NCBI GenBank assembly: GCA_902362275.1
Contig: CABIWB010000001.1
Coordinates: 404,659-468,658, forward strand
Origin: Coriobacteriaceae bacterium
Lineage (GTDB): Bacteria; Actinomycetota; Coriobacteriia; Coriobacteriales; Coriobacteriaceae
Direction: 5' to 3'
Length of the DNA: 64,000 bases
In this document: positions 5,637 through 47,319 of the stretch, piece by piece
How positions within the stretch are numbered: the stretch's first letter is position 1
Layout of the letters: every line of letters starts with the position of its first letter
Translations under genes and position numbers: made by a program
The notes under the pieces: model-generated
What the model saw: only the letters and a program-made list of their open reading frames with translations
Told to the model about the DNA's origin: nothing
The model's database searches: none

Positions 5637-7358
5637 TTAGAACAGGTTGTAGAGCTGCGTGAGCGGCAGCTTGGTCGCCGGCTCGCAGCTGGCGAGCTCG
5701 CCGTCGACGGTGACCTTGTAGGTCTCGGGGTCGACCTCGATCGTGGGCATGGCGCCGTTGAGCTTCATGTCGGCCTTGCCCACGGTGCGGCAGCCGTGTA
5801 CGGGCACGACGTGTTTCTTAAGGCCGAGCTTCTTGGGTACCTCCAGGTCCAGGGCGGCCTGGCTCATAAACGTCAGGCAGCTCGTTGCGCGGGCGAGACC
5901 GTCAGCCGCGAACATGTGGCGGTAGGTGACCGGCTCGGTGGTGGGGATGGAGGCGTTGGCGTCACCCATCTTGGAGGCGACGATCATGCCGCCCTTGATG
6001 ATGGTATCCGGGCGCGAGCCAAAGAAGGCCGGGTTCCATAACACCAAGTCGGCAAACTTACCCACCTCGACTGAGCCTACGTAATCGGCCACGCCGTGAG
6101 TGAGCGCCGGGTTAATCGTGTACTTGGCAACGTAGCGGCGGGCGCGGAAGTTGTCGTTGTCGTGGCCCTCGTCCTCGGGAAGCGGTCCGCGCTGGGCACG
6201 CATCTTGGAAGCCGTCTGCCAGGTGCGGGTGATGACCTCGCCCACACGGCCCATGGCCTGGCTGTCGGAGCTCATCATGCTAAAGATGCCCATGTCCTGC
6301 AAAACATCCTCGGCCGCAATCGTCTCGGGGCGAATGCGGCTGTCGGCAAAGGCAACGTCCTCGGGGATGCGCTTGTCCAGATGGTGGCACACCATGAGCA
6401 TGTCCATATGCTCGTCGAGCGTATTGTGGGTGAAGGGCATGGTGGGGTTGGTGGAGCTGGGCAGCACGTTGGGCTCGCTCGCGATGCGGATGATGTCGGG
6501 CGCGTGACCGCCACCGGCGCCCTCGGTGTGGTAGGTGTGAATGGCACGGCCGCCAATCGCGGCGATGGTGTCCTCGACGCAGCCGGCTTCGTTGAGTGTG
6601 TCGGTGTGAAGGGCAACCTGTACGTCGTAGCCATCGGCCACGTTGAGTGCATGGTTAATAGCCGCCGGGGTGGCGCCCCAGTCCTCGTGGACCTTCAGGC
6701 CGATGGCGCCGGCCTCGATCTGCTCGGCCAGCGGACGCTCGTCCGAGCAGTTGCCCTTGCCGGTGAAGCCCAGGTTCATGGGGTATTCCTCGGCAGCCTT
6801 GAGCATCATCGAGATGTTCCAGGGACCAGGGGTGGAGGTGACGGCGTTGGTGCCGTCGGCCGGGCCCGTGCCGCCGCCGATCATGGTGGTCACGCCCGAA
6901 TACAGGGCGCAGTCGATCTGCTGCGGGCAGATGAAGTGGATGTGCGTGTCCAGGCCGCCTGCGGTAAGGATGAGCCCCTCGCCGGCCAGGGCTTCGGTGC
7001 CCGCGCCAACGGTCATGCCCGGGGTTACTCCGTCCATGATGTCGGGGTTGCCGGCATGGCCGATGCCGACGATGTAGCCGCCCTTAATGCCGATGTCGGC
7101 CTTGTAGATACCCGTGTAGTCGAGCACAAGCGCGTTGGTGATTACCAAGTCCAGGTCGCCGTCGGCGCTGGTGGTGGTGACGGACTGGCCCATGCCGTCG
7201 CGCAGCGTCTTGCCGCCGCCAAACTTGGCCTCCTCGCCATAGGTGGTCAAGTCGCGTTCGACCTCGATGATCAGGTCGGTATCGGCCAGACGAACCTTGT
7301 CTCCGACAGTGGGTCCGTACATGGCGGCGTATTTATTGCGGTCGATAGAAAATGCCAT
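5637..7358 (-). CDS. ureC: urease subunit alpha (catalytic)
   Basis: UreC hydrolyses urea to ammonia and carbamate at a di-nickel centre. The 573-residue protein has the usual length. It keeps the metal ligands in GGLDTHIHF, the lysine that is carbamylated to bridge the nickels ([10 protein letters not shown]), the metal-binding [15 protein letters not shown], and the flap with the active-site cysteine and histidines ([19 protein letters not shown]). A GAGGAGG ribosome site precedes the ATG. It starts 2 bases after ureB. All catalytic residues I can place are present, so the enzyme should be functional. Confidence 0.98.
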
Positions 7359-30100: not shown

Positions 30101-31026
30101 CTGGCCTCAACGGTATTGCTGCTACTCCGCTGGTGAGTGTTCAGGGCGGCAAGACCTATGTGTACTTCACCGTTAACAGCGCGGATAGCAAGGATTACGT
30201 CAACTACTCTGCTGGTGGTGGTGTGTATCGCTATACGCTCGGCGATGCAGAGGCGACGCAGATTTATGATGCGGCTGGCCATTACCAGTACTGTGACTCT
30301 CCGGTCATTGCCGATGCATCTGGCAACCTGTACTACATCAATGACTCGGGCACGCTGTTCAAGCTGGGGGCCGTCGAGTCTTGGACGGTTGCCTTTAATT
30401 CCAACGGCGGGTCTGCTTGCGACACTAAGTTTGTTGCTACGGCCGATGGCAAGCTGGTCAAACCGACCGATCCGACGCGCGATGGCTACACTTTCGGCGG
30501 TTGGTATACCGATGAGGCTTGCACGCAGGCGTATGACTTCAGTACGCCGGTGACGGCCGACCTGACGTTGTATGCCAAGTGGACCAAGAATGCCGTTAAC
30601 CCTGACGGAAATGGCGGTTCTGGCTCCAATGGCGGCAATGGTGGCGCTGGCACGGGTTCAGGCTCCGGCACGAAGGACCAGCAGGCTGGCGGCGCTGTCG
30701 CTCCGGGTCATAAGCCGACGACCAAGACGACGGTGTCGACCAAGACCGAGACCAAGGACAACAAGTCCGACAAGAAGGACGCCGATAAGTCCGATAAGAA
30801 GGACAAGAAGAAGTCTGACAAGAAGTCTGACAAGAAGGACAGCAAGTCCGACAAGAAGTCCGATTCCAAGTCCGATACGGGTGCTGCTTCTACGACCACT
30901 GCTAAGAAGTCCTCTAGTGCTTCCGAGCAGGAGACTGGCACCAACCCGCTCGCCATTGTTGGTGTTGCCGCCGGCGTCATCGGTCTCGCCATCGTCGGCG
31001 TGTTCGTGTTCACCAAACGTCGGTAG
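27181..31026 (+). CDS. large surface protein: four DUF4430 domains, beta-propeller, InlB-type repeat, C-terminal anchor
   Basis: DUF4430 is the transcobalamin/intrinsic-factor C-terminal-like fold. The 1281-residue product has a signal-like stretch at about residues 55-80 and a disordered Ala/Glu-rich region. Four DUF4430 copies follow (about 172-288, 296-404, 410-519, 524-638), each ending in a pattern like YWQLFVNGK and VTFMYG. A PQQ-like propeller (about 681-1066) and one InlB/Flg_new repeat (YTFGGWYTDEA...LYAKW) come next. A Lys/Asp/Ser repeat leads to a C-terminal membrane helix ending TKRR, with no clear LPXTG. The cobalamin riboswitch upstream supports a corrinoid-capture role. Start 27181 follows GGAGGGAAGGGGGA. 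Confidence 0.9.
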   Translation: MGELERNMRDDVGQPQGNAPSTDNGGQMDMFEDERERASMHRRGAIARGVAKRGLVAFLAFAMAFGTTPAQLWAEGAEGIAEAVAQTATPVEDAALAGGTAEQSGAEVSDSEGAPAASAAITEAATGDEGSATGESPAASEQSSAASAGQAGSAAAAAVQTENPTETGDVAQKQVEVSFSIIGTDADGKAQTWVAPTQLKLDEGATAADAFIKLQQKTGFKADYDPNTAYGFYLKSITSPSDGRTLAYDPTTYAFWQLFVDGASSSVGASSVKLAQGQQIEFAYTAGSTTPVVKDQVAANVTVIGRDAQGKTQTWVDNAQYVVTSGSNALDLTKAALEANGIDAVAAGSFILSLKYNGVELGTPLDYSTYWQLFINGKSSDYTADNVTIHAGDTVTWFYGGWGDKLPSDSVHASVQVLGKDKDGKQQVWASTGQTSLKSGSTAKDLLEQTGLTLDAGESSWGWFLNGITSPFDGKSYGWDAATNSYWRFYVNGKFADVGAGAYELQEGDAVTFMYGADADALPGQVLGSVDVIGPDVNGNNTRWGSASNVSLPEGSTAQDFIETVLKAKRVDYKASQSGAYWFLNSITSPFDHKPYAWDAETNKYWHLYINGEPSLLCANQITLKSGDKVTLAYTTDDSPMPDPDKIVVDPSATTPDWDAEWAGYGNSGNGSTVTDAKTPAQAAGLKWAFDWKAESGQQYANCSEPVIANGFVYIATENELIKIDSSTGKKVASAPLASKVSYTSRPIYTNGLIIVPLNGGAVQAITADKLICKWLTPGLTDLTQSSCTVVSDGEYVYVGSVDISYDENYNATYGNGSFARIKIATGEVSWQNIDPAEGYYWTGAALTNKYAIVPTSAGTLKCIDKMTGDVVSTMKLGAVANADCIADPSNGSTFYQMTHDGKLHVISLSAKGVLSEQKTVDLGLTNNLSAPAVSGDNLIVGGQTATGSALVLYNLKTGKTTMVAAADGKALPAGLNGIAATPLVSVQGGKTYVYFTVNSADSKDYVNYSAGGGVYRYTLGDAEATQIYDAAGHYQYCDSPVIADASGNLYYINDSGTLFKLGAVESWTVAFNSNGGSACDTKFVATADGKLVKPTDPTRDGYTFGGWYTDEACTQAYDFSTPVTADLTLYAKWTKNAVNPDGNGGSGSNGGNGGAGTGSGSGTKDQQAGGAVAPGHKPTTKTTVSTKTETKDNKSDKKDADKSDKKDKKKSDKKSDKKDSKSDKKSDSKSDTGAASTTTAKKSSSASEQETGTNPLAIVGVAAGVIGLAIVGVFVFTKRR

Positions 31027-42601: not shown

Positions 42602-43819
42602 GTGTCTATGCGTACCGATGATTTTGACTACAACCTTCCCGAGGAACTGATCGCCCAGGCTCCCACCGAGCCGCGCGACTCCTGCCGCCTGCTGGTGGTG
42701 GATCGCAAGGGCTCCCAGGCGGGAACGCCGCTGGAGCATGGCGGCACCGTTGAGCACCGCATCTTCCGCGACATCATCGACTATATCGAGCCGGGCGACG
42801 TGCTCGTCATCAACAAGACGCGCGTGATGCCGGCCCGCCTGATCGGTCGCAAATCGGGCTCGGGTGGCGTGGTCGAGACGCTGCTGCTCAAGCGCCGCGA
42901 GGATGTTGACCCGCTGGGCCATGTTTGGGAGTGCCTGGTCAAGCCGGGCAAGCGCCTGAAGCCCGGTGCCCAGATTGAGTATCGCGCCGGTGGCGCCCAT
43001 GCGCCCGAGGGGGCTCCCGTGGTGCTGACGGCCGAGGTCATCGACTTTGTCACCGATAGCCGTGGTGGCCGTCTGGTGCGCTTTGAGCCGGCCGGTTGCA
43101 ATGCCGCCGGCGACCCGCGCACGCTCGACGAGGCCATCCATGCGGCCGGCCACGTGCCGCTGCCGCCCTACATTACCGATTACGAGGGCGACCCCGAGAA
43201 GTACCAGACCGTCTACGCCATGAAGGAAGAGCACTCGGCTGCCGCTCCCACGGCGGGTCTGCACTTTACGCCCGAGCTTATGGCTGCCATCGAGGCCAAG
43301 GGTGCCAAGTTTGCCGCCGTCGAACTCGAGGTGGGCATCGATACCTTCCGTCTGGTGGAGGAGGACGATCCCACGCAGCATGTGATGCACACCGAGCGCT
43401 ACCACGTGTCGCAGGAGGTTGTCGACGCCGTGCATAAGGCGAAGGCCGAGGGCCATCGTGTGATTGCTGTCGGTACCACGGCGGTGCGCTCGCTCGAAAG
43501 CGCGTTTGACGCCGAGGCGCCGGTGTCCGATCCGGCCGTGACGGCGCGCTATTTTGAGGGCCGCGAGGATGGGGCCGATACGCTCGGCCGCGGCGACATC
43601 GTGGTGCGCGAGAACGCGACGACGCAGCTCTACCTTATGCCCGGCTTGACCTATCACGTGGTCGACGCGCTGATCACGAACTTCCACGTGCCGCGCTCCA
43701 CGCTCATGATGCTCGTGAGCGCACTTGCCACCCGCGACCAGATCATGGATGCCTATGCCGCCGCCATCGAGGAGCGCTACCGCTTCTTCAGCTTTGGCGA
43801 CGCAATGCTCATTCGTTAG
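42602..43819 (+). CDS. queA: S-adenosylmethionine:tRNA ribosyltransferase-isomerase QueA
   Basis: QueA transfers the ribosyl part of SAM to preQ1-tRNA to make epoxyqueuosine. The 405-residue protein is longer than the roughly 350 of E. coli. It has FDYNLPEELIAQAP, DVLVINKTRVMPARLIG, SAAAPTAGLHFTPELM, VELEVGIDTFRLV, VGTTAVRSLESAF and TNFHVPRSTLMMLVSAL. Extra length lies in the region after ETLLLKRRED. GTG 42602 follows AAGGAG. The last base of the stop is the first base of the repeat hairpin at 43819. Confidence 0.96.
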   Translation: MSMRTDDFDYNLPEELIAQAPTEPRDSCRLLVVDRKGSQAGTPLEHGGTVEHRIFRDIIDYIEPGDVLVINKTRVMPARLIGRKSGSGGVVETLLLKRREDVDPLGHVWECLVKPGKRLKPGAQIEYRAGGAHAPEGAPVVLTAEVIDFVTDSRGGRLVRFEPAGCNAAGDPRTLDEAIHAAGHVPLPPYITDYEGDPEKYQTVYAMKEEHSAAAPTAGLHFTPELMAAIEAKGAKFAAVELEVGIDTFRLVEEDDPTQHVMHTERYHVSQEVVDAVHKAKAEGHRVIAVGTTAVRSLESAFDAEAPVSDPAVTARYFEGREDGADTLGRGDIVVRENATTQLYLMPGLTYHVVDALITNFHVPRSTLMMLVSALATRDQIMDAYAAAIEERYRFFSFGDAMLIR

Positions 43820-43980
43820 TTACGCGGTTCTACGAACCGCGTAACGGCTCGACGCTGCAAACGCCCCTAAGCGGCAATCTGACGTTCAATCGTCGGGCAT
43901 GACCAGAAGGTCAATGCCCTCCTCTTTCACGTCACCTTGCTCGCTTAGGGGCGTTTTCGCTGTCCGCGCCAAAACATTGG
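43819..43980 (+). repeat. four-helix structured repeat, copy A
   Basis: Visible helices are: (1) GTTACGCGGTTC/GAACCGCGTAAC, 43819-43845; (2) an enclosing 15-base perfect stem, AAACGCCCCTAAGCG (43859-43873) with CGCTTAGGGGCGTTT (43942-43956); (3) TGACGT (43880) with ACGTCA (43929); and (4) GGGCATGACC/GGTCAATGCCC, 43895-43919. A short CGCCAA/TTGGCG hairpin follows. Copy B at 46991 keeps the same layout with changed but complementary bases. The GGCGTTTTC end also looks like a terminator for queA. The remaining 43981-44129 bases hold GGGGAC repeats. Confidence 0.8.
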
Positions 43981-44056
43981 CGTTGCCGTTGTTGGCACTT
44001 GGGGACGTTCCTTTTGTGCCGACACCTGGGGACAGTCCTTGCGCCAAACTCTTGAC

Positions 44057-44112
44057 TAGTCATTGGGGACGTTCTTGTTCGACTAGTCGTTTAAGAACGT
44101 CCCCAATGACTA
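44057..44112. repeat. GGGGAC-family inverted repeat, 20-base perfect arms
   Basis: TAGTCATTGGGGACGTTCTT at 44057-44076 pairs perfectly with 44093-44112. The palindrome CGACTAGTCG sits in the loop. More GGGGAC half-units lie just upstream at 43998-44040. The same arms recur at 47188 and 47300. It looks like a REP doublet (REPIN). Confidence 0.8.
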
Positions 44113-44129
44113 CTTGCCTGGCGGCTGGT

Positions 44130-45893
44130 TTACTTGCTTGCGAACAGCCAGACTAGGATGATCACCAGGATTGCGGCGACGATGCAGACGATGGCGCCGG
44201 TGAATTTGATGCGTGAGTCGCGGGTGCGCTCTCGTACGTCGTCTTCGGTGGCCTCCAGCTGGGCGACTTCTCGCTCGGTCTCGGTGTGTTCGGCTTTGTC
44301 TCGGGCCAAGGACCCTGCAAGCGACTCGGTGATCTCTGGGTGGTCGTGCACCTCGGTCGCCTGTTCGATGATCGACTGCGCATGTGCGGCATCTGCTTGG
44401 GCGTTGGCGATGGTCTGCTCCTGGTCGCGGCGTGCCTTGTCCTCGGCAGTGATCTTCTCGCGCAGTTCGCGCTGACGAGTCGTGGCGGCAGTCTTCGCCG
44501 TCTGCAACTCGTCGCGCGCGGCATCGGCTTCGGTCGTCACGGCTTGGTGCGCGCGTTTTGCGTCGGCGATAGGGGCTTGAGCCTGCTCGACGGCCTGCTC
44601 GGCTGCGGCAAGTGAATGTTCAAGGTCGGCGGTGATGTGCGGGACATCTTCTTCGGCTTTACGCAGGGCATCTGCCGTGTCGGAAATCTGCATCGAGAGC
44701 TCGCTGGTGCGCACCGTATAGTTGGCGGGATTTGCCGAGGGATTGCGTTGCAGCTCGGCATACTCATGACGCAGCGTCTCGAGTTGGGCGCGCGTGGCGT
44801 CGACGGTTTGTTGTGCGGCGGCAATGCCGGCGTCTCGCTCTGCCTTCACCTTGTCGCGGATGCGCTTGGAATCCTCAAGACGTCGAACGAGGCGGTTGCC
44901 AGTCTCGCGTGAGCTCGCCTCGCGGGCCTCCACGGCGTCGAGCGCGGCCTTCAGACGGAGCTCAGTCGCGTCATCCTCTGTCTTCATTTGTTCGAACTGA
45001 CCCTTGAGCTCTGTCACTTTGGCGGCGTGGGCATCACGGTCAATCTCGGCTGCCGCAGCGGTCTTTTGCGCTGTGGCGATCGCCTGACGCTGGTCGGCGA
45101 CGATCTGGTCGTAGCGGCCTGCGATATCCTGGCGCGTCTCGAGTTCCTCGGCCTGATCGGCAATGCGCTGCTCAAGTTCGGCTAGGTGGGCGCGGGCATC
45201 GGCAAGTGCCTTTTTCGCGGCGTTCATCTCGCGCATGGCCGAGGCACCCTGGGCGATAAAGGTGCCCACGGCGTTCGCAGTGTTCGAGACGGCGGTCCCC
45301 AGATCTCGGCTCGCGGCGGGGGAGTGCGGGGTGGTCGGGCGAGCGGTGTCGGCAGCGTCCGCATCGGTAGCCTGCGGCGCGGCGATATTGCCGGTGCCGC
45401 CCTCGACCACAGAAAAGCCTGCTGCGTGCGGGTCGACCGCATCGGCGCCAATCGTGGGGTGCTCGAGCTGCAGAAACGAGGGCATGGTGCTGCCCTGGTC
45501 GGCAACCGGAGTTTCGCCGGGTACGAAGGTCGAGGCTGCCTCGGCGGCCTCCTCTTCCTCGGCATCAACGTCAGCGTCGGCCACGGCGTCTTTCATCGCT
45601 TTGACGGCATCCATCATGGAGTCCATGACGGCGTCGAGCTCTTCTTCCGAAGACACCTCGATGGGGCCCGCAGCTTGCGGGGCGGCGTCCTGTACAGGGG
45701 CGTCGTCCTGAGCGGGCACATCGTCATTTTCCTCGTCGGCGTTTTCTGTTTCAGGGGTTTCCGCCGTAGCGCTTTCGTCCAAGATGGGGTCGTCGATGTC
45801 GATATCATCGCAGGTCACAGCGTCAGTATCTGCGGCGACGTTTACGGAATCATCAATATGCTGTTGAGTCTGGGGGTCCAGCTCGTCTGTCAT
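44130..45893 (-). CDS. long coiled-coil protein with C-terminal membrane anchor
   Basis: The 587-residue protein has an acidic, Asp/Glu/Ala-rich N-terminal 150 residues. A middle region follows (LGTAVSNTANAVGTFIAQG). About 300 residues of Ala/Gln/Glu coiled coil come next (AHLAELEQRIADQAEELETR and similar heptads). One C-terminal membrane helix ends it (FTGAIVCIVAAILVIILVWLF). This is a tail-anchored topology. The function is unknown; a spacer or envelope-organising role is a guess. Start 45893 follows GAGGAGC. Confidence 0.85.
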   Translation of the reverse strand: MTDELDPQTQQHIDDSVNVAADTDAVTCDDIDIDDPILDESATAETPETENADEENDDVPAQDDAPVQDAAPQAAGPIEVSSEEELDAVMDSMMDAVKAMKDAVADADVDAEEEEAAEAASTFVPGETPVADQGSTMPSFLQLEHPTIGADAVDPHAAGFSVVEGGTGNIAAPQATDADAADTARPTTPHSPAASRDLGTAVSNTANAVGTFIAQGASAMREMNAAKKALADARAHLAELEQRIADQAEELETRQDIAGRYDQIVADQRQAIATAQKTAAAAEIDRDAHAAKVTELKGQFEQMKTEDDATELRLKAALDAVEAREASSRETGNRLVRRLEDSKRIRDKVKAERDAGIAAAQQTVDATRAQLETLRHEYAELQRNPSANPANYTVRTSELSMQISDTADALRKAEEDVPHITADLEHSLAAAEQAVEQAQAPIADAKRAHQAVTTEADAARDELQTAKTAATTRQRELREKITAEDKARRDQEQTIANAQADAAHAQSIIEQATEVHDHPEITESLAGSLARDKAEHTETEREVAQLEATEDDVRERTRDSRIKFTGAIVCIVAAILVIILVWLFASK

Positions 45894-46187
45894 AGGTATG
45901 TGCTCCTCATCGTTGTTTGTCACCCTATGATAAAGTCTCGCGCCGACTTCCCGCGCGCCGCAGCAAAGTTTCAAAACGTGTTCGATGGCTCGATCTGATA
46001 ACAATAACTCGGCCGCTTTATCCAGTTTGTACTTGACAATCCCTTCGCCGAACGACGTGGTGCCGTTCGCCTACCGTGGTCTTTTATTTTCGCTTGAACA
46101 CGCTAAAGTTGCGTCTCAGCTTTTGGCGCGTTTATTTGGATGCGCGCAGTCGGCGGGTTCGCCCGTCGCGATTTGAAAGGACTTTGT

Positions 46188-46988
46188 ATGGGACTTTTCA
46201 CTGGTAAGACCGTGATCGTCACCGGCGGCGGCAAGGCCACGCTTAAGGACGGTTCTGCTGGCTCCATCGGCTACGGCATCGATATCGCATTTGCCAAGGA
46301 GGGCGCGAACCTCGTCATCACCGGCCGCAACGTCGCCAAGCTCGAGGCCGCCAAGGAGTCTCTCGAGGCCGAGTACGGTGTCAAGGTTCTGCCTGTTCAG
46401 GCCGATGTCTCGGCTGGCCAGGATAACGAGGCCGTCGTCCAGAACGTCATCGACAAGGCCATTGAGGAGTTCGGCCGCATCGACGCCGTCGTCAACAATG
46501 CTCAGGCCAGCGCCTCGGGCGTGACCATCGCCGATCACACCATGGACCAGTTTAACCTGGCCATTTACTCCGGTCTGTATGCTACCTATCTGTATATGCA
46601 GAAGGCCTATCCGCACCTGAAGGAGACCAAGGGCTCCGTGGTCAACTTTGCCTCGGGCGCCGGCCTGTTTGGCAACTACGGCCAGTGCAGCTATGCCGCT
46701 GCCAAGGAGGGCATCCGCGGTCTGACTCGCGTTGCCGCCAACGAGTGGGGCAAGGACGGCATCAACGTCAATATCGTGTGCCCGCTTGCTTGGACCGCTG
46801 CGCTCGAGAACTTCCAGGATGCTTATCCCGAGGCGTTCAAGGCCAACGTTCACATGCCGCCGGCGGGCCATTACGGCGATGCCGAGAAGGAAATCGGCCG
46901 CGTGGTCGTTCAGCTTTGCGGTCCCGACTTTAAGTACATGAACGGCGAGACCGTCACCCTCGAGGGTGGTATGGGCCAGCGGCCTTAG
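46188..46988 (+). CDS. short-chain dehydrogenase/reductase, unknown substrate
   Basis: Classical SDR fold, 266 residues. The nucleotide site starts KTVIVTGGGKATL and is unusual, with extra residues before GSIGYGI. VVNNAQAS is the NNAG-like motif, the catalytic Ser is in VNFASGAG, and SYAAAKEG gives the Tyr-x3-Lys. The C-terminal end is GETVTLEGGMGQ. The Asp/Asn pattern after the beta2 strand (VITGRN) suggests NADP(H), but this is not certain. Gut SDRs include bile-acid dehydrogenases, yet no residue here identifies that substrate. Start 46188 follows GAAAGGA. Confidence 0.9.
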   Translation: MGLFTGKTVIVTGGGKATLKDGSAGSIGYGIDIAFAKEGANLVITGRNVAKLEAAKESLEAEYGVKVLPVQADVSAGQDNEAVVQNVIDKAIEEFGRIDAVVNNAQASASGVTIADHTMDQFNLAIYSGLYATYLYMQKAYPHLKETKGSVVNFASGAGLFGNYGQCSYAAAKEGIRGLTRVAANEWGKDGINVNIVCPLAWTAALENFQDAYPEAFKANVHMPPAGHYGDAEKEIGRVVVQLCGPDFKYMNGETVTLEGGMGQRP

Positions 46989-46990
46989 GG

Positions 46991-47160
46991 GTTACGCGGT
47001 TTTACCAAACCGCGTAACCAGTTGACGCTGCAAACCCGCCAGAGCGGCAATCTGCCTTTCAACTTCGGCGGCATGACCAGAAGGTCAATGCCGCCTCGTT
47101 TCAAGGCACCTTGCTCGCTTTGGCGGGTTTTCGCTGTCGGTGCCATAACATCGGCGTTGC
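46991..47160 (+). repeat. four-helix structured repeat, copy B
   Basis: Same layout as copy A: GTTACGCGGTTT/AAACCGCGTAAC (46991-47018); AAACCCGCCAGAGCG (47032-47046) with CGCTTTGGCGGGTTT (47116-47130); TGCCTT (47053) with AAGGCA (47103); and GGCGGCATGACC/GGTCAATGCCGCC (47067-47095). The paired bases differ from copy A yet stay complementary, apart from one G-U. It begins 2 bases after the SDR stop. The rest of 46989-47425 holds a GGGGAC repeat cluster and the tgt promoter. Confidence 0.8.
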
Positions 47161-47187
47161 CTTGGTTGTTGGAAATGATCCCAGATG

Positions 47188-47319
47188 TAGTCATTGGGGA
47201 CGTTCTTAAACGACTAGTCAAAAGGGATGCTCTTGCCGGCACTTGGGGACAGTCCCTAAGTGCCGGCAGATTGGGACACTCCTTTGCAAGATGGCGCTGA
47301 AGAATGTCCCCAACGACTA
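47188..47319. repeat. GGGGAC-family repeat with a second palindrome inserted
   Basis: The outer arms at 47188-47207 and 47300-47319 are the same 20-mer pair as at 44057-44112 (18 of 20 pair). A near-perfect 35-base palindrome, TGCCGGCACTTGGGGAC and its complement, is nested at 47234-47268. It looks like a REP doublet that took up another REP hairpin. Confidence 0.75.

Follow-up and report, generated by a model that had tools for sequence, protein, structure and literature searches.

A family of dispersed two-hairpin repeats placed behind stop codons in Collinsella and related bacteria

A family of dispersed hairpin units has two members in a 64,000-nt stretch of a Coriobacteriaceae genome (GenBank assembly GCA_902362275.1, contig CABIWB010000001.1, positions 404,659 to 468,658 of the forward strand; the whole stretch is called the window below), one behind queA and the other behind an SDR gene. 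The family has a conserved fold, its copies are placed in the sense orientation behind stop codons, they are exchanged among loci, and they are present in some strains and absent from others. The comparison of copies suggests that the shape of the fold is kept as its letters are exchanged. The reading which we favour, tentatively and at not quite an even chance, is that this is a non-coding, dispersed two-hairpin repeat resembling repetitive extragenic palindromic (REP) sequences and bacterial interspersed mosaic elements (BIMEs), constituting a family of its own, whose fold would act in the mRNA behind the terminating ribosome.

Both window copies are on the forward strand. The first abuts the stop codon of queA (open reading frame 42602..43819), a gene with matches in 41 of 42 genomes of the genus. 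It includes a short hairpin, HP1 (GTTACGCGGTTC/GAACCGCGTAAC, 43819..43845), read from the sequence as an inverted repeat and beginning on the final base of the stop codon, a long interrupted hairpin, HP2, of subtype A (AAACGCCCCTAAG, 43851..43962), and a 3′ tail (43963..43986) with a stem at 43966-43983; HP2 and the tail were delimited by sequence and folding. The second copy lies behind the stop of the SDR gene (46188..46988, longest frame from 46140) and begins one base 3′ of it, with an HP1 again read as an inverted repeat (GGTTACGCGGTTT/AAACCGCGTAACC, 46990..47019), an HP2 of subtype B delimited by sequence and fold (AAACCCGCCAGAG, 47024..47136) and a tail read from the sequence (GTGCCATAACATCGGCGTTGCC, 47137..47162). 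An earlier note on this DNA had correctly placed both starts at the stop codons of queA and SDR.

HP1 is a hairpin of 12–13 bp. From the outside, HP2 is composed of a 15-bp outer stem, GCAA/TTGC, an internal loop TC/CC and a 6-bp stem, followed by a larger internal loop, whose two sides carry TTCA and TTTC, and by an inner hairpin that has a single bulged A and closes in a 4-nt loop. The long stem, AAACGCCCCTAAGCG/CGCTTAGGGGCGTTT, is 100% complementary in copy 1, and its counterpart in copy 2, AAACCCGCCAGAGCG/CGCTTTGGCGGGTTT, is 93% complementary with one non-Watson-Crick position; the second stem reads TGACGT/ACGTCA in copy 1 and TGCCTT/AAGGCA in copy 2. The shared structure and the stems quoted in the earlier note are thus present in the window sequence, and the predicted folds are far more stable than expected (z = -11.9 for copy 1 and -10.3 for copy 2, with none of 200 dinucleotide shuffles as stable for either copy). 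The description as four stems is accurate in that these stems exist, but the unit is better viewed as HP1, one long interrupted HP2 and a 3′ stem which copy 2 forms only weakly on folding. The broader of two covariance models, R2, scores 112.2 bits at 43851-43961 and 116.1 bits at 47024-47135, values which are not independent since both window rows are part of that model. A pattern derived from HP1 of copy 2 has a single match on the two strands of the window, at its own site, and is too strict to find HP1 of copy 1.

The family unit is an imperfect hairpin HP2 of about 112 nt (112 model positions), mostly with HP1 in front, in the layout HP1-linker-GACGCTGC-HP2-TCGCTG. The 19-base inner core gave 77 matching stretches in named genomes. 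Going by title, 70 come from Collinsella; the remaining seven (L004, L015, L035, L038, L045, L065 and L071) were rejected as chance-like, with no element around the core in the stretch shown. As the first set was picked by the exact core, the core is invariant there, a limit lifted by the covariance model R1. Of the 43 genomes of the genus, 33 match this model. It identifies 28 distinct places in G003, a genome of one contig, and 32 in G024, with three contigs, after removal of opposite-strand duplicates, the raw matches at E up to 0.01 being 41 and 47 and including opposite-strand matches of one hairpin; copy numbers are lower bounds, since part of the candidates per genome were scored. Homologues, which the earlier note had proposed to seek with a covariance model, are abundant: R2 finds the family in 63 of 197 genomes of the class, representing 21 of 93 genera, and all the positive genomes except one (G182) belong to the order of Collinsella, which we take to be Coriobacteriales. 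In a phylum-wide draw 7 of 198 genomes are positive, all seven from the same order.

The base pairs of the family covary across many copies. We aligned 36 rows, 34 of them chosen to be less than 93% alike together with the two window copies, after dropping from 40 kept rows L120, L122 and L155 (replaced by the window rows), L106 and L119 (hard to align) and L141, considered below. Pairing is held in 95.1% of cells, compared with 71.6% when the letters of the 3′ side are shuffled (none of 500 shuffles as high) and with 33–40%, at most 40.2%, when the pairing is slid. At 30 of 38 pairs both sides change with pairing kept, and the paired differences between the two window copies are therefore real compensatory variation, as had been claimed. 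The loop columns 39-41, 63-64 and 84-86 are 97–100% conserved in the 36 rows and also hold in 12 or 13 of 13 divergent rows obtained through R1 alone; the near-invariant short loop motifs are TTCA/TTTC and the tetraloop AA. Most positions of the feet GACGCTGC and TCGCT likewise reach 97–100% conservation. In L116-L118, from relatives belonging to a different family (f6), a second inner module was seen by eye in place of the GACC-NNAA-GGTC tip, with CTCAGTYGCGTAT...ATACGCTCCTGT in this module of L116 and L118.

The position in the 3′ untranslated region, which the earlier note had put forward for the two window copies, is general. Counting stops of frames of at least 100 codons, a stop on the same strand lies 30–38 nt before HP2 in 20 of 25 copies in G003, 18 of 28 in G024 and 11 of 21 in G096, a genome of another family of the order, whereas the mirror test on the 3′ side gives two copies in each genome and random positions give 1.6–2.6%; these context counts took 25 of the 28 distinct G003 places and 28 of the 32 in G024. 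The gap between stop and HP2 is occupied by HP1. An earlier control with opposite-strand frames had given 74 of 89 on the 5′ side against 24 of 89 on the 3′ side, and it was because we think that spurious antisense frames inflate the latter figure that the stop-distance test with its mirror and random positions was run. By eye, copies whose strand is opposite to that of most neighbouring genes still lie behind a gene of their own (L124, L126, L139, L163, L172), and copies without HP1 have HP2 a few bases after the stop (L153, L155, L165, L109, L111, L112). A single copy (L119) is behind a tRNA gene. Two or three such hairpins can follow a stop in a row, in other Collinsella (G042, G020) and in G053. 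For comparison, T-tailed terminators, found behind 50 of 371 genes, begin at a median distance of 29.5 nt from the stop, with 4% of them beginning within 6 nt of it. A preference for TAG stops was examined and found unconvincing (63% of 38 genes with an HP1-like start, 50% of 354 others).

In some copies a stem extends across the stop codon into the gene (L113, L117, L118 and L294, by folding and by eye). One gene, by eye probably that of an ABC-type ATPase, has family copies in G020, G061 and G096, its proteins being 72–89% identical. The synonymous codons of its coding end, QQLVYSLL*, differ between G061 and G096, and the bases after the stop pair with each codon version, forming 11 pairs in L279 and 14 in L341; among 125 window stops, taken as background, the median is 4 pairs, the 95th percentile 7 and the maximum 11.

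Near-identical strains carry different subtypes at one and the same locus. Behind queA, the window and 20 near relatives carry HP2 subtypes A, B and C and two versions of HP1, and the queA tree of these 21 rows, only 5 of whose 17 inner branches are well supported, implies at least 8 changes of HP2 subtype and at least 7 of HP1 version. By eye, 14 of the 20 queA copies in relatives are intact, L200 is a chimera, three are interrupted by other sequence (L205, L209, L219) and two are cut by contig ends (L206, L211). At the SDR locus, 19 strains carry subtype C (6), D (9), an internally deleted D (2) or B (1), the remaining row (L232, poly-G) being unreadable and left untyped. The same subtypes recur at many loci among 173 matches to a motif expression (35 clusters, some merging different genes); the family has at least four subtypes, of which the window copies represent two. 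In L209, L219 and L236-L238 a whole unit is joined to a truncated older copy. Since subtypes occur at many loci and replace each other at a given locus, the differences between copies are inherited as blocks and are no simple mark of divergence under selection.

Strains also differ in whether a copy is present at a given gene. Two sites behind one gene are free of the element (L033 and L001, with upstream identities of 97.4% and 97.5%); R2 has no match at either, its matches there being to other copies at L033 3233-3344 and L001 7905-8000. In L033 the stop is followed by 21 bases and then by a terminator-like hairpin. This hairpin is kept further downstream in L087, L001, L022, L070 and L027; behind the same gene L157 has other sequence in its place, and L054 and L311 end before it. 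L001 carries, at this gene, a different repeat with ATGAGCGTGGA...TCCACGCTC ends, ahead of a REP sequence. In other Collinsella species R2 finds no match behind queA at any of ten loci (L220-L229), and behind the SDR gene, with six loci examined, L251 (40.5 bits) is the only match, L253 having just a weak one of 22 bits that lies elsewhere.

How far the covariation speaks for selection has to be seen against one further case. Relative to the allele in L024, the 3′ arm of L051 is rewritten into a perfect match of its 5′ arm, as would be expected of template switching in a hairpin. Compensatory change had been taken in the earlier note as the mark of selection, a reading that is mistaken or at least too simple, as this correction matches the arms in one step without it. 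The accompanying contrast between a selected RNA and a decaying repeat proves to be a false choice: the structure and its covariation are there, but the family is also a dispersed repeat with presence and absence between strains.

Other mobile or repeated sequences lie close to the family. An IS110-type element was located at L063 1973-2890, and its left end recurs at 34 places, spread over 15 of 42 Collinsella genomes; the transposase matches DEDD_Tnp_IS110-like with 27.1 bits (E 4.1e-6, over 125 unmasked residues), below the cut-off of 29. The element mainly targets the hairpin family at the 3′ edge, TCGCT. Of 30 left-end loci read, 21 fit the 3′-arm motif of HP2 and three more do so by eye (L304, L312, L324); L309, L320 and L327 are behind terminator-like hairpins ending in TTTTGCT or TTTTTGCT, L309 and L320 sharing one flank; L326 is doubtful, and L318 and L319 are behind neither an HP2 arm nor a terminator-like hairpin. 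The left junction reads ...TCGCT| (or TTTTGCT|) and the right end ...GTGT|CTG in four of four cases, with |CTGTC in all three that are long enough. Given the insertions behind terminator-like hairpins, the target rule may be a hairpin plus a T-rich GCT. The element is possibly a new bridge-RNA system with a repeat as target. Its left end was found in no viral contig. Carriage of the hairpin family by phages was also considered and rejected: a 15-base motif of the hairpin unit occurs in 61 viral stretches, none of which contains a copy according to R2.

The GGGGAC repeats, noted earlier behind both copies, are indeed present there but are a different, separate repeat. They occupy 43999..44106 beside copy 1, where they are REP/BIME-like, and, by repeat search, 47185..47316 behind copy 2, with no strand assigned to either. 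They look like a separate REP family, because similar repeats, of GGGGAC or GGGACGGGG type, flank three of five Y1-transposase genes read (L190, L192, L194), though not clearly L191 and L193. A link of HP2 itself to Y1 transposases of the REP-associated tyrosine transposase (RAYT) kind was rejected, R2 matching at one of 17 Y1 loci (L179), which by its coordinates is the queA copy of that genome. In this queA copy (L205/L179, G026), other sequence interrupts the TTTC loop, and a Y1-transposase gene follows some 200 bases further on.

On the reading we favour, of a repeat whose fold acts in mRNA, the hairpins would themselves provoke ectopic gene conversion or template switching between copies, and the DNA would spread in this way or else through an enzyme acting in trans; for the first arrival at a new gene, a step beyond conversion and switching would be needed. 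Once transcribed, the hairpins would be the first structure behind the terminating ribosome, and the fold might be kept for holding back or insulating the ribosome and for protecting the 3′ end against exonucleases. The constancy of the loop motifs suggests a binding partner. REP sequences of E. coli close to a stop codon affect translation. Structures behind a stop are reported to govern re-initiation (PMC7518266), and RNase R, together with PNPase, is reported to act on structured mRNAs that contain REP sequences (PMC12320835). We think it rather unlikely that matters go further, to a dedicated system which would copy a folded hairpin module onto gene ends, on the sense strand beside the stop, with versions exchanged and the 3′ arm fitted to the landing site, common mRNA ends evolving in concert; this would be a previously undescribed class of mobile 3′-end structures.

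Several observations weigh against a fold kept for a role in mRNA. Paired changes can be created without selection, by hairpin-templated correction as in L051 and by gene conversion. Row L141, dropped before the pair count, is a chimera with unmatched arms and counts against pairing, and other broken or chimeric copies are still present (L141/L200, L240, L247). Unpaired columns overall are scarcely above paired ones in conservation (0.743 against 0.724), so that only the named motifs stand out, and 21 of the 36 rows either belong to the window or were selected with a motif expression demanding those very motifs. By the measure applied to L341 and L279, L342 has only 4 pairs across its stop. 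Between G003 and G042 (22 and 14 genes compared) there is no clearly orthologous gene with a shared copy, and therefore no single gene seems to need the element. Finally, the terminator-like hairpin at the L033 gene is present with or without the element, which is thus not needed as a terminator there.

A transposase acting in trans is the main rival to gene conversion or template switching. A miniature transposon moved in this way, whose enzyme would read the folded single strand and insert it at gene 3′ ends without any role in the host mRNA, is in our judgement unlikely, if a good way from negligible. It would account for the presence and absence differences between strains, the whole units set on truncated older copies, the near-fixed feet and loop motifs within a variable stem and the rows of units, whose flanks are similar by eye; yet no autonomous partner or target duplication was noticed, though no systematic search was made, the element is at a single one of the Y1-transposase loci, the stretches shown lack the right half of the target behind the L209 insert, and so tight a sense-only placement at stops would be unusual for a DNA transposon. 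The same placement is left unexplained by a wholly neutral repeat, in which the palindrome would stall replication and template switching would both correct one arm from the other and copy sequence from other loci, complementarity and swapping being by-products with nothing selected. We consider this distinctly unlikely: the arm correction in L051 against L024, the subtype swaps behind queA and the unmatched arms of the L141 chimera speak for it, but correction would also erase the internal loops and the A bulge, both of which persist across families, and it gives no reason for the conserved loop motifs in divergent rows.

Position and stability would also suit a transcription terminator or a small RNA released from the 3′ end of the mRNA, the latter among the possibilities raised earlier; subtypes A and B end in GTTTTC, and a T-tailed hairpin follows within about 200 nt downstream in only 12 of 53 copies. 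However, subtype C ends without a T run, a downstream terminator-like hairpin is kept at the L033 locus in five of the strains compared and another is found behind one hairpin row (L283), and we regard this possibility as very unlikely. No T-tailed hairpin was found inside any of the 53 copies, a weak argument because the script, limited to stems up to 15 bp, loops of 3–8 and at least 5 T in 7, is blind to stems as long as HP2. That the unit is a folded recombination site of the integron attC kind seems extremely improbable. The long imperfect hairpin with unpaired spacer, right behind stops and exchanged between loci, does resemble attC, but attC boxes are not apparent by eye, and the two genes studied closely, queA and SDR, are not cassette-like: of the 41 genomes of the genus in which queA is found, most are close relatives that carry the element, and others lack it.

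Elsewhere in the window, positions 6910-7205 match the Rfam family RF02514 (5′ ureB sRNA) with 120 bits against a cut-off of 40; because the alignment has many non-standard pairs, the match suggests conserved coding sequence rather than a true small RNA. An imperfect 12-base tandem repeat, GACAAGAAGTCC, is present in nine copies at 30757-30863. The tandem repeats of the window have no relation to the hairpin family.

With dozens of copies per genome, loci with and without the element and swapped versions at one locus, the family provides a large natural data set that allows a direct comparison of how structure behind the stop affects termination, mRNA decay and re-initiation. It also serves as an example of strong covariation, commonly read as evidence of a functional RNA, arising within a repeat that exchanges between loci and has undergone at least one hairpin-templated correction, and searches for RNA motifs should allow for such repeat-born covariation. 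The IS110-type element offers a natural target site for work on bridge RNAs.

Among known RNAs, no counterpart was found, in agreement with the earlier suggestion that the element is undescribed: the comparison with Rfam, which included the Collinsella-1 motif, group II introns and riboswitches, gave no family above chance. In a search of the whole window, no Rfam 15 family reaches its gathering score on the element; with the limit relaxed to E 10, the only overlap is with the sobemovirus FSE at copy 2 (17.4 of 55 bits needed, E 4.7), and in 20 relatives only miRNA models overlap one copy (L113, best 40.8 of 137 bits). These weak miRNA, viral and small RNA names were rejected as chance matches of hairpins. 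Collinsella-1 (RF01700) is absent from the matches of the window segment even at E 10; its likeness to the hairpin family is in the source, the RNA being reported from Actinobacteria and from human gut (PMC2864571). The family may be among the 3161 candidate RNAs from human microbiomes of PMC8040213, which mentions a Collinsella candidate located upstream of a ribosomal protein gene. No published description was found among the literature search results listed. Readings as group II intron domain V or as a tRNA-like structure were dropped by eye and on the Rfam search at E up to 10.

The enterobacterial repetitive intergenic consensus (ERIC), an imperfect palindrome of near 127 nt found between genes in tens of copies, is similar to the hairpin family in size, palindromic form, copy number and intergenic place; it differs in taxon and in sequence, and sense-only abutment of stops, an HP1 and swapping between loci are not known as features of ERIC. 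RAYT-associated REP sequences are short palindromes of about 20–40 nt with a fixed tetranucleotide in front. HP1 is short, but by eye no such tetranucleotide precedes it, and HP2, unlike RAYT-associated REPs, does not lie beside Y1 genes, except for one queA copy.

REP/BIME repeats in general are frequent at gene 3′ ends, and as a dispersed, multi-copy palindrome in that position the hairpin family is a REP in the wide sense, although HP2, at about 112 nt and with internal loops, is not a short one. REPs and BIMEs are described as many dispersed palindromes per genome and as targets of insertion sequences (PMC1525189, PMC2817692, PMC11208160). The targeting of REP by IS621, of the IS110 family (PMC11208160), resembles the present case in that a DEDD-type element inserts at one fixed point of a repeat; here the target is the 3′ edge of a new family or, in 3 of 30 loci, a terminator-like hairpin. 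The ribosome termination structure (RTS), a stable mRNA structure right behind the stop codons of many genes, is likewise close, the hairpin family being a stable structure immediately 3′ of the stop; in PMC7518266, however, RTS is presented as general to many genes and not as a sequence family or repeat. The family matches no Rfam family and is not flanked by RAYT genes, yet it acts like a REP/BIME repeat and like an RTS.

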